NCBI RefSeq assembly: GCF_000411295.1
Contig: NZ_KE150422.1
Span: 62,001-126,000, forward strand
DNA from: Paenisporosarcina sp. HGH0030
Lineage (GTDB): Bacteria > Bacillota > Bacilli > Bacillales_A > Planococcaceae
Reading direction: 5' to 3'
Length of the DNA: 64,000 nucleotides
Shown: one piece after another, positions 1,199-57,593 of the stretch
Numbering within the stretch: position 1 is the stretch's first letter
Layout: each line of letters starts with the position of its first letter
Translations under genes and position numbers: made by a program
The notes under the pieces: generated by a model
The model's input: the letters and a program-made list of their open reading frames with translations, nothing else
Told to the model about the DNA's origin: nothing
Databases searched by the model: none

Positions 1199-1325
1199 TT
1201 AATTTGGAGTAAAGTGAAAATTAATCGGCATCGTCTTGGATTTAATTGGGTTCAACTGAGATTTAAACGGCATTGACTTAGTTTTAATCGGCATCAAATA
1301 CCATTTAATCGGTCTCACCCAATAA
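1199..1325. repeat. Degenerate 21-bp-phased tandem repeat, array 1
   Basis: Units beginning TTAATCGGCATC or close variants start at 1221, 1242, 1263, 1284 and 1305, an exact 21-base period, with a weaker unit at about 1199. The first 12 bases are conserved and the last nine vary. The array lies in the 500-base gap between the lipoprotein gene and metQ, past the metQ terminator; the rest of the gap (944-1198) is featureless AT-rich DNA. Two other arrays of the same spacing lie at 23457 and 57411. Confidence 0.7.
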
Positions 1326-1385
1326 TTCCTACAAAAAATCAAACTTCAAGTTACTGAGTGACTAAGTATCCTCTTCCAAGAAATA

Positions 1386-1410
1386 GAAAAGACGCCGGTT
1401 TCCCGACGTC
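1386..1410 (-). terminator. Terminator of metNPQ
   Basis: GACGtCGG-GAAA-CCGgCGTC hairpin followed by TTTTC on the minus strand, 12 bases beyond the metQ stop codon. Confidence 0.85.
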
Positions 1411-4175: not shown

Positions 4176-4346
4176 TAAAAATCCCTTCCGCAGACAAGCA
4201 GAAGGGACTAATGCACAATTATATACGTTAGACCGTTCTCTCATCTTTCAAAGCAAATTCGCTTTGAGTGATTTGGCACCATTTCACAAATTGTGACGGT
4301 TGCCGGGCTTCATAGGGCACTTCCCTCAGCCTCTCTTTATAAGAGT
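4176..4346 (-). promoter_or_regulatory. SAM riboswitch (S-box) with terminator, controlling metNPQ
   Basis: On the minus strand the conserved S-box core is plain: CTCTTATAAAGAGAGG, CTGAGGGA, GCCCTATGAAGCCCGGCAACC, GGTGCCAAATC and GATGAGAG, spanning about 4346 to 4236. It is followed at 4208-4176 by an intrinsic terminator (AGTCCCTTCTGC loop GCGGAAGGGAT then T-rich). In this family SAM binding stabilises the terminator, so metNPQ is transcribed when SAM is low. The leader from terminator to the metN start is about 190 bases. Confidence 0.95.
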
Positions 4347-18194: not shown

Positions 18195-18760
18195 TATATC
18201 TCCTCTTTCTGCCACTCTTTTGTAGCATCGATCCATGTAATGAATTTCTTCAAGACTCCATTAATGAATATTACGGTCTTATCATCAGTTAGTGTTCCTT
18301 TATCATTAAATTTCGTTGATGCTTGTCCAATCAAAATTTCATTTCCAGGTAGTGTTAACGCTTGATGTCCTGGTGAATTTAATATTAATCGCAAATGATT
18401 TTGAGCACGTGATGTTCCTACTGGTCCTCCTGAACAACCCATGATCAGAACTGGTTTCTTTACAAAAACTTTTTCTTTTCTTGAAAGCCAATCCAATGCA
18501 TTCTTCAATGCCCCAGGCACTGAATGGTTATATTCAGGCGTCGCAATCAGCACACCGTCAGATTCCTGTATCAGTTGGATGGCTTTTTTCACCTGTTCAG
18601 GAACCTCAGCTTCGATATCTTCATTAAACAATGGAAACTCATTGATTTCAATAAACTCCATTTTTATGTCCACTTTGTACGTTTCTTGTAAGTAGGCAAG
18701 TAACTTTCGATTTAATGATTCTTTCCGCAAACTTCCAGCGATCAAGGCGAATGTTTTCAT
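18194..18760 (-). CDS. NADPH-dependent FMN reductase
   Basis: 188-residue flavodoxin-fold protein. Phosphate-binding loop GSLRKESLNRKL at residues 9-20 and the PEYNHSVPGALKNALDWLS segment near residue 80 are diagnostic of the NADPH-dependent FMN reductase family, which includes azoreductases and chromate/quinone reductases. Physiological substrate unknown; likely quinone or flavin reduction in the cytoplasm. AAAAGGAGAG lies before the ATG. First gene of a two-gene operon with the exonuclease. Confidence 0.9.
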   Translation of the reverse strand: MKTFALIAGSLRKESLNRKLLAYLQETYKVDIKMEFIEINEFPLFNEDIEAEVPEQVKKAIQLIQESDGVLIATPEYNHSVPGALKNALDWLSRKEKVFVKKPVLIMGCSGGPVGTSRAQNHLRLILNSPGHQALTLPGNEILIGQASTKFNDKGTLTDDKTVIFINGVLKKFITWIDATKEWQKEEI

Positions 18761-22989: not shown

Positions 22990-23112
22990 ATGTTGATTTC
23001 CATTGCGGCGGACGCGTTTCGCGGGCACGACTTCAGTCTCCTCGTCACTACGTTCCTGCGGGGTCTTCAGTTCGTACTGTTCCCGCTGAAGTCGCCGCCT
23101 CCACTCCAATCA
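22990..23112 (+). repeat. Bacillaceae-type palindromic repeat element, copy 1
   Basis: GC-rich stretch in an AT-rich gap, ends in inverted TTGATT/AATCAA and GCGGCGGAC/GTCGCCGC arms, with CTCCTCG and CTGCGGGGTCTTC inside. It resembles a repetitive element that I know to be common between genes in Bacillus-group genomes (recollection, not searched). No coding capacity. Confidence 0.65.
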
Positions 23113-23163
23113 AAAGAAATTGCTTCTGTAAGCGTGTCTCTGCAAAATTTTAAAGTTAGAAGG

Positions 23164-23292
23164 GGTCGGCTATTTCTGAAGACTCCTGCGGAAAAACGAA
23201 ACAAGCTAGACCCCACATGCTCAGCTGTCATAGACAGCTGAGCCGAGGAGGCTAGCGTTTCGTCCGCGGAAAGCGAAAGAAATAGCCGGCCA
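23164..23292 (-). repeat. Bacillaceae-type palindromic repeat element, copy 2, inverted
   Basis: Terminal inverted repeats GGTCGGCTATTTCT and AGAAATAGCCGGCC (one mismatch) enclose GACTCCTGCGG, a perfect 11-base hairpin (GCTCAGCTGTC-ATA-GACAGCTGAGC at 23219-23243), CCGAGGAGGCT and CCGCGGAAAGCG. Same internal landmarks as copy 1 but in opposite orientation, 50 bases away. Confidence 0.7.
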
Positions 23293-23376
23293 CAATCTTT
23301 TTCGATAGAGTGCAAAAAATAAGAACTCAATTTTTATACTTTTATATTAATTGTTATTCTTTTGTCAACAAGCTGA

Positions 23377-23409
23377 GGCAGTCTCCAAAAATGGAGACTG
23401 CCTTTTTTA
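23377..23409 (+). terminator. Plus-strand terminator
   Basis: GGCAGTCTCC loop GGAGACTGCC followed by TTTTTTATT. The nearest upstream plus-strand genes are the ger genes. Confidence 0.7.
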
Positions 23410-23456
23410 TTGGCTCATTGAGTAGCTGAGCGATAACTCAGTTTAACTTTTTGGGT

Positions 23457-23530
23457 TTCACGTCTGAAAAATTAGCGTTCACATCTGACTTTGCAGATTC
23501 ACGTCTGAAAACGACCTTTGAGACATCTTG
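23457..23530. repeat. Degenerate 21-bp-phased tandem repeat, array 2
   Basis: Units TTCACGTCTGAAA, TTCACATCTGACT, TTCACGTCTGAAA start at 23457, 23478 and 23498, and a weaker unit (GAGACATCTTGAC) follows at about 23519. Spacing 20-21 bases. It lies in the gap just after the hutH stop codon. Confidence 0.6.
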
Positions 23531-38490: not shown

Positions 38491-38843
38491 TTTGTTCACC
38501 TACTTTTCTTGTCTTTAAAGAGAATCTATTCAACAAATATAATATACCTTATTTTACTGAAGTAAACCTTTTTACTTTATTAGTGTACTGCCTAACCTTG
38601 CATATATCAGTAAAAACTTAGTAAAATAATTCATAGCCAAATGGTATTCATTATACTTATCTTTACGACAAGCTCCTAATCCAAATTGGAATCAGAAGGT
38701 TTATAAACAAAGTTCATATAAATAATGTGTAAATTACCCTAATAACAAAACAAGGATATTTAATAAGAGTTCAACTCCTATCAAATACCCCTAACATTGT
38801 TTAAACATTGATTTAACAGTGTTTCTACTGTCAAAAATAAATA

Positions 38844-39196
38844 TGGAGACGGCGGGAATCGAACCCGCGTCCAGAAACTCCAACACTTAAGCTTCTACGC
38901 GTGTATCTTGCCTATTGAGGTTTCGCGCAGCATTATGCCGACAAGCGGGCGTCTTGTGCGCTAACTTGAAAGTCTCTTCTCGGCGGCTCAAGTCGCACCG
39001 ACGATCGTATCCCACTAAGAGTGAGCTCGTACAGGACCACATGGGCGATGGTCAAGACAAGCAACATTGTCAGCTTACGCTGCGAATGCTAGGTTTTGGT
39101 TTTTGCCAGTTATTATAAAATGACGTTGATACGGAGCCGATCCCTCCGACGCGCAACTTAAGCTCAGACCATCCCTGTCGAATCCGTAACGTCCCC
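38844..39196 (-). ncRNA. ssrA: Transfer-messenger RNA (tmRNA)
   Basis: 5' end GGGGACGTTACGGATTCGACAGGGATGG and 3' end GACGCGGGTTCGATTCCCGCCGTCTCCA pair as the tRNA-like domain; total about 353 bases. CCA is not encoded (the gene reads TAT after the discriminator A). The tag frame at 39107-39075 reads GKNQNLAFAA then TAA, giving the tag A-GKNQNLAFAA with the usual degradation end. It rescues stalled ribosomes with SmpB, encoded just upstream, and RNase R. Its 3' end is duplicated downstream at 38289. The bases 38491-38843 after it hold no gene, only a weak ACAGT/ACTGT hairpin. Confidence 0.95.
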
Positions 39197-39796: not shown

Positions 39797-39972
39797 CTCG
39801 CTGTCAAGAAAAGCGCAAAGCACCACTCTAGCCTACACCATCGCCTGAAGTTACCGAATCGAAGTGCATTCGTTTCGATAGGAAGGCTAAAGTCACCGCG
39901 TCCTGCGGTAACGCATGACCCACATCCTGTGGGCCCAAGCTTTGGCGTAGGCTGGCGCTTGGAGCTAGACAT
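39797..39972 (-). repeat. Intergenic palindromic element (TCTAGCTCC...GCGCTTTTCT type)
   Basis: Between rnr and smpB. On the minus strand it starts GTCTAGCTCCAAGCGCC and ends GGTGCTTTGCGCTTTTCT, with inverted ends (GGCGCTTGGAGC against AAAAGCGCAAAGC, and GTAGGCT against AGCCTAC) and inner hairpins (CCCACAGGATGTGGG, ACCGCAGGACGCGGT). I recall elements with these ends as common between genes in Bacillus-group genomes. It is more GC-rich than its surroundings and read-through of it creates a false 62-codon N-terminus for SmpB. Confidence 0.7.
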
Positions 39973-57410: not shown

Positions 57411-57535
57411 TGACCATTGTTATTGAATATCTGACCATTCAGAACCGTTATTGACCACTCAAAGACGTTTTCTGACCGGTTAACTTGATTTTCTGTCCAG
57501 TTCGAAGCACTTTCTGTCCATACACTTTCAACCCC
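57411..57535. repeat. Degenerate 21-bp-phased tandem repeat, array 3
   Basis: Units opening TGACCATT, TGACCATT, TGACCACT, TGACCGGT, TGTCCAGT, TGTCCATA start at 57411, 57432, 57452, 57473, 57494 and 57515: spacing 21, 20, 21, 21, 21. The 5' five bases are best kept. It lies between the trxB terminator and the nudix gene. The rest of the gap (57276-57410) shows no gene. Confidence 0.75.
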
Positions 57536-57548
57536 CTTTCCAAACGGC

Positions 57549-57593
57549 AAAAAAAGAGGCTGTTTCATCGATTTGCACCGAGAAACAGCCTTT
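57549..57593 (-). terminator. Terminator of trxB
   Basis: AGGCTGTTTC ... GAAACAGCCT stem; on the minus strand followed by CTTTTTTTGCC. Confidence 0.85.

Follow-up and report, generated by a model that had tools for sequence, protein, structure and literature searches.

A genome-wide family of 21-bp-phased repeat arrays at gene ends in Paenisporosarcina

The DNA analysed here, the window, is a stretch of 64,000 nucleotides from Paenisporosarcina sp. HGH0030. Near its start, the minus strand carries a met operon with a SAM riboswitch (4238-4345) and metQ (1423-2343), which encodes an NlpA/MetQ lipoprotein (Pfam PF03180, E 8.2e-85). Behind this operon, downstream of metQ, lie five 21-bp units on the minus strand (array 1; 1200-1325). 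By eye, the operon ends in an intrinsic terminator that points into the array (1385-1410, minus strand; hairpin GACGTCGGGAAACCGGCGTC followed by TTTT), and a leader, TTTTTTGTAGGAATTATTGGGTGAGACC, runs from a T-run into the first unit (1311-1338, minus strand). The minus-strand core is GATGCCGATTAAA, designated class A. Cores fall at 1221, 1242, 1263, 1284 and 1305; all four spacings are 21. The lag-21 score is 71 of 105 (scored stretch 1214-1318), and Tandem Repeats Finder independently called the array (1221-1295, period 21, 68% matches, score 80). Hence, the five units at an exact 21-base period reported in a preliminary description of this DNA are borne out. The same description had the units opening TTAATCGGCATC. 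This is correct, letter for letter, at 1221 and 1284 and incorrect for the other three of the five.

Two other arrays lie in the window. Array 2 (23457-23509, plus strand) consists of three class E cores, TTCAC[AG]TCTGA, with spacings of 21 and 20. A plus-strand intrinsic terminator, recognised by eye as a hairpin and T-run, points into it (23376-23408), and a small hairpin, CTGAG..CTCAG, adjoins it (23426-23441, plus strand, by eye). Array 3 (57411-57525, minus strand) has six class C cores, TGGWCARAA on the minus strand, spaced by 21, 20, 21, 21 and 21, and a lag-21 score of 58 of 105. Its terminator is again a hairpin and T-run found by eye (57549-57591, minus strand). These two arrays had been given the same period as array 1; the spacings are mostly 21, with one of 20 in each. 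All three arrays are intergenic and close to a terminator, as the preliminary description stated for the two further ones, and by eye a transcript leaving the hairpin and T-run would enter the array. Elsewhere in the window is a Bacillaceae-1 RNA (RF01690) near the tmRNA gene (39875-39933 and 38841-39196).

We then considered the genome as a whole. The sample comprised 50 regularly placed 20-kb stretches and the window (1.064 Mb), and gave 504 intergenic pieces, each 84 bp or longer (162,881 bp in all). As genes we took ORFs of 90 codons or more called by a simple program of our own, in place of an annotation. Arrays were called at 54% identity over lags L and 2L, and ten extra stretches picked around pattern matches were excluded from the count. 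Intergenic DNA contained 21 arrays at lag 21. Lags 18, 19, 20, 22, 23, 24 and 25 gave 0, 1, 1, 1, 0, 0 and 0, respectively. Over lags 14-35 only 21 stood out, the runner-up count being 3 (lags 14 and 15); lag 42 also stood out. Dinucleotide-preserving shuffles of the same pieces contained no lag-21 array in 30 of 30 runs. The preliminary description had proposed this comparison with shuffled intergenic DNA of like composition and, at 21 against 0, its observation stands. Two of the 21 arrays lie in the window and seven in stretch L086, four of them in one intergenic region; hence, independent arrays number fewer than 21. By simple proportion, the 3.52 Mb genome would hold about 70. Within genes without N, lags 15, 18, 21, 24 and 27 gave 16, 11, 5, 3 and 2 matches, with no more than one at any other lag between 16 and 26. 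Genes thus show several lags and intergenic arrays 21 alone, so intergenic DNA differs from coding DNA in period. A 50 kb sample of E. coli had no lag-21 array, though its 3,780 intergenic bases are too few to carry weight.

The period held when spacing was left free. Around 47 arrays, 184 spacings between cores were 21, with neighbours in L086 and L129 counted more than once. Fifteen departing spacings below 70 were found (seven of 20, one of 22, two of 42, then 1, 31, 34, 39 and 66) and none of 18 or 24 between neighbouring cores. We also searched 200 genomes of the family for two cores separated by any gap of 1-31. Among the matches listed, 31 of 34 class A pairs and 48 of 50 class E pairs were spaced by exactly 21, and the five others by 20, 20, 32, 40 and 41. 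Reversed control patterns gave no match for class A and five matches in four genomes for class E. We conclude that the arrays are a true genome-wide repeat family with a period fixed at 21 bp. That two helical turns are common to arrays of differing consensus, as first described, holds far beyond shuffles and other lags.

About 12 bp of each unit form its core and the rest is free, and units are direct copies in a row; opposite-strand core matches numbered 0 or 1 per array region (47 arrays). Among 50 arrays from this and related genomes, 30 had four units, seven had five and 11 had six, the remaining two being overlapping calls on one 35-unit array in genome G017. Because the scan starts at four units, shorter arrays such as array 2 escape and this narrow copy number carries no weight. 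The 35-unit array (L112:11197-11939) has two unit types, mostly alternating, with a 42-bp super-period; other scored arrays have 4-6 units. Four class G arrays occupy one intergenic region in our genome, at about 1.759 Mb of C1 (L086:9232-10216), within a super-repeat of about 270 bp. The other strain has five.

We distinguished about ten core types in our genome by eye: A (GATGCCGATTAAA), B (AGTTGCCCCWATA), C (TGGWCARAA), D (GGGAATAAA), E (ACGTCTGAA), F (TGTCTACCTGGA), G (GATATC type), H (TTAGTTGGAAAA), I (GCGAATAGAA) and J (GCTCATAAA). When the 50 arrays were clustered, 13 clusters resulted across all genomes, with A and D falling together. Also by eye, a leader around AATTGGGYGAAAC precedes class A and D arrays, often after a T-run; a small hairpin, CTGAGC/GCTCAG, lies at one end of several arrays of class E type; and a possible micro-ORF (start-GGY-GAA-..-stop) lies in the leader. 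A weak W/S shoulder at lags 8-13, 29-31 and 50-52 would suggest a half-period signal, on which we do not rely. With one representative for each of 12 of the 13 clusters, the AT-rich chance cluster being omitted, no common pattern was demonstrable (z 1.1; 11 of 60 shuffles at or above). A 19-member set that included related types did share a weak pattern (z 5.4), which none of 60 shuffles reached with equal restarts. Hence, the different consensus noted for different arrays holds, though the larger set aligns beyond shuffles. A single ancestral unit for all types was considered and dropped, given the one-per-cluster result and the related types within the 19-member set.

The preliminary description had asked whether arrays favour DNA after terminators or between convergent genes. 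A strict scan for a hairpin with T-run found, for 20 of 41 arrays, a terminator no more than 70 bp away that points into the array, compared with 213 of 1414 controls (15%; p 4e-7). Control positions were drawn at random from non-divergent gaps of 150 bp or more and were unmatched for distance to the gene end. The 41 arrays exclude other genera, three of the four tandem L086 copies and one AT-rich match. Array 2 is outside this set, and the scan scored neither of the terminators seen by eye at arrays 1 and 3. For 27 arrays of our genome, pattern-chosen stretches included, the flanking genes were codirectional in 18 cases, convergent in eight and divergent in one; gap length predicts about 17, 5 and 5. 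Arrays are thus few between divergent genes. Relative to the upstream gene, most class A arrays, not all, share one orientation. By eye, the array at L132:13362 sits between gene and terminator rather than behind.

To follow turnover, we used a second genome of the same species. Briefly, 33 arrays were submitted, 27 aligned across the array and six fell outside the fetched stretches. Two were dropped, L017 because it matched another locus only and L009 because the array was replaced. This left 25 usable arrays, including L086:9550, which is ambiguous within its tandem cluster. The comparison of copy number between strains that had been proposed revealed whole-unit changes at three of the 25: L091:10966 (42 bp), L086:4700 (21 bp) and L069 (units rearranged). 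This supports the earlier suggestion of slippage-born DNA under a shared length constraint. Array sites differed at 46 of 2184 positions and flanks at 138 of 13,315, with L017, L009, L069 and L086:9550 excluded and all L086 removed from the flanks; before exclusions the values were 123 of 2620 and 244 of 19,181. Differences fell in conserved (14/890), intermediate (22/904) and variable (10/390) columns. Selection on the core is therefore at most weak over this short time.

For arrays of the second strain, 19 of 20 sites were spanned in the first and one lay outside the sample; no spanned site lacked the array. We therefore rejected mobile insertion leaving an empty site: none was seen among the 19, and L009 is a replacement, the other strain having the entire spot, terminator included, exchanged for unrelated DNA. 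By eye, that DNA (L164, about 2400-2510) resembles a GC-rich stretch of about 300 bp in the window (22990-23330; GCGGCGGACGCG... CGCCGCC), which looks like a second dispersed repeat family.

Persistence at homologous sites was mixed. The array behind metQ is present in both genomes of its own species (scores 71 and 68 of 105) and searching 600 bp behind metQ did not find it in the remaining seven species of the genus (best scores 37-51 of 105). At four of nine testable loci, the homologous 3' site in another species also carries an array: L083 (G000)/L128 (G006), L013/L130, L014/L132/L106 and L091/L129. Chance alone, by proportion, would put an array at 2-3% of gene ends. The score of the L014 array, 53, is below the cut of 55; its class A units are plain nonetheless. 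The L091/L129 pair is less certain, since the genes are just 60% identical and the L129 array is reversed. No array was found at the other species' site for five of the nine (L084/L105, L091:13992/L106, L101/L062, L107/L012 and L132:13362/L014). At L083/L128, the genes on both sides are homologues (identities of 81% and 87%), and by eye the promoter region downstream still aligns. The two arrays are of types I and A; place and period are kept and the core spelling is different. At L130 (G006), two arrays of unlike type follow each other in one intergenic region.

At least five of the 200 family genomes had class A pairs, one of them a stray from outside the genus; class E pairs occurred in at least five, all of the genus. 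These two core types are genus-specific. The dominant type varies by species: among the matches listed, G004 had 26 A pairs and no E pairs, and G005 no A pairs and 34 E pairs. Lag-21 arrays with other cores occur in other genera of the family (G008, G017, G018, G019 and G024). Samples of 40-60 kb from G009, G013, G014 and G021 had no lag-21 arrays, and neither did 60 kb each from G025 and G037, which belong to other families. G015 gave a single, AT-rich and unconvincing match, and the four matches in G026 all fall in a single block of repeats of another, longer kind. A plasmid collection searched with array 1 gave no match. Long arrays occur in G018 (L184:10637-11100 and 18275-18460; L185:14229). 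In the first, two frames stay open through many units (reading EINPFKT / DKPIQDR), and gene callers may annotate it as repeat proteins. The paired class A pattern also matched once in a contig of Oceanospirillum maris (L148:5930-5963), with no lag-21 array in its 8 kb. This is probably chance or coding.

Several known systems invite comparison. BOX elements of Streptococcus pneumoniae are dispersed, intergenic and modular, with the arrangement boxA-boxB(n)-boxC and a variable copy number of the inner module. The arrays are likewise dispersed with a repeated module, and have 21-bp units rather than boxB modules. Intergenic VNTRs, or minisatellites, are tandem units with a period that varies from locus to locus. 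Tandem units and whole-unit differences between strains (3/25) are shared with these. However, the arrays have one period over many loci and several core types, with only 21 standing out, alongside 42, in the scan and 21 again prevailing in the free-spacing searches, and they are associated with terminators. Plasmid iterons and partition-site repeats are direct repeats of about two helical turns, one face of which is read by a protein, and iterons adjoin a Rep gene or origin. In contrast, the arrays are chromosomal, number dozens and comprise several core types per genome. CRISPR arrays also have repeats separated by variable stretches, the repeats being near-identical and the spacers unique. 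PMC3733652 gives 24-48 bp for the CRISPR repeat; here the whole unit is 21 bp with about 8-9 variable bases, the cores are degenerate and the loci are many and dispersed.

The closest likeness is to REP/BIME elements. PMC3733652 describes these as short, intergenic, many per genome, downstream of genes and of several sequence types, and as lying mainly between codirectional and convergent genes. The 21-bp arrays are also short, intergenic, numerous, downstream of genes and of several types, and they avoid divergent pairs (1/27) and have terminators pointing into them (20/41). They differ in structure. The 21-bp unit has no palindrome of the 20-40 bp REP kind, inverted copies are almost lacking (0 or 1 opposite-strand core, 47 arrays), there is no clear fold excess and copies run head-to-tail at a fixed 21 bp. 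Among the open-licence PMC papers listed by our searches, titles and abstract openings held no account of such arrays. We conclude that they extend the known small interspersed 3'-end repeats by an unusual, fixed helical period.

How is the period maintained? Twenty-one bases are seven codons, and the arrays could be small translated ORFs of heptapeptide repeats. The minus strand of array 1 is open from a GTG start to TAA (39 codons), by eye a class B array (L026) and others likewise have an open frame and a Shine-Dalgarno-like stretch, and stops were slightly depleted over six frames (11.6 versus 12.5 per 100 nt in column shuffles, p 0.046). However, open frames were not significantly more numerous than in column-shuffled arrays (1.78 versus 1.54; 49 arrays, p 0.30), eight of the 15 departing spacings are one base off and so break the frame, none is 18 or 24, and genes show several lags (15, 18, 21, 24 and 27) where intergenic arrays show 21 alone. 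Some other class A arrays lack the start codon by eye, many matches in relatives contain stops and a Pfam search with the 39 aa gave no match. Lacking a genome-wide excess of open frames and frame-preserving spacings, we rejected the coding reading of the array 1 ORF, and translation is very improbable for the family. A stop codon was conserved per unit at 0.79 versus 0.68 (p 4e-4), an excess that we set aside because many arrays are related. Scarcely more probable is an RNA element of 3' untranslated regions, such as a stability or Rho-type termination signal. The array at L132:13362 precedes its terminator by eye, so some arrays may be transcribed, and REP elements are thought to work partly as RNA, according to PMC3733652. 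Against this, many arrays are behind a terminator, folding showed no clear excess (mean z -0.24, s.e. 0.16, 54 strands) and single-stranded RNA would not need strict spacing. Least probable of all is intrinsically curved DNA, in which phased A-tracts would bend the DNA behind terminators with no sequence-specific protein. Two helical turns make 21 bp, and A-tracts show an apparent excess over column shuffles, which break ordinary dinucleotide bias (0.57 versus 0.38 per unit, 44 arrays, p 1.6e-4). Cores, however, are of mixed sequence and on this account would not need to resemble each other.

A far stronger contender is a neutral or selfish 21-bp minisatellite family of the Planococcaceae. It would have spread among these genomes, last only in tolerant spots at gene ends and change by slippage and recombination of whole units, its period being inherited and not selected. 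We regard this as quite possible. It would account for the whole-unit differences at three of 25 aligned arrays, for arrays diverging about twice as fast as their flanks, for the relatedness of some core types and for the 35-unit array in G017. Moreover, two pairs of same-type arrays align over leader and units and not over the outer flanks, like dispersed copies. The 19-member set shares a pattern, so part of the shared period may indeed be inherited. However, the period is constant with no common pattern across clusters, departures from 21 are rare and arrays persist at four of nine homologous sites. Given the missing pattern and the other cores in other genera, simple inheritance of a single unit is a weaker account of the shared length. 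The one-per-cluster result slightly raises the preferred explanation, below, and slightly lowers the neutral one.

Our preferred explanation, at a probability of about 0.48, is that the arrays belong to one dispersed family of DNA elements at gene 3' ends, that DNA geometry holds their period and that they probably form a platform for a candidate DNA-binding protein. The arrays have a fixed 21-bp period and a characteristic location, turn over by whole units, include two genus-specific core types and persist at some homologous sites. We lean towards a protein on one face because the same period occurs in clusters with no demonstrable pattern and because the L083/L128 array is respelled. Each core would have to face the same side of the helix, to meet a putative DNA-binding protein or an enzyme that wraps DNA, gyrase for example; REP elements and gyrase offer a precedent in PMC3733652. 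The putative protein would occupy the array as a row, and the period would be kept by that need. The exact core may drift with its protein or through homogenisation between units. Most likely, the arrays would act on the DNA ahead of any RNA polymerase that reads through, possibly as a roadblock, an insulator or a sink for transcription-driven supercoiling. Counted against the protein account are the weak constraint on cores, the faster change of arrays than of flanks, the absence of array 1 behind metQ elsewhere in the genus, the five of nine loci with no array and the mixed orientation. The protein account and the neutral repeat family stay close. More doubtful is a family-wide scheme of post-terminator "helical rulers". 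Here, a conserved candidate protein along about 100 bp, making one contact per two turns, would stop or insulate read-through, and spelling would be replaced repeatedly between species, much like satellite DNA, while spacing and often position were kept.

Should a function be confirmed, the arrays would represent a bacterial repeat family under selection for geometry over sequence and placed where transcription ends. They would also provide a handle on how such Firmicutes separate transcription units or manage supercoiling. Even if neutral, the arrays would be a satellite-like bacterial family with several core types, whole-unit turnover and persistence at sites, in which concerted evolution is measurable.
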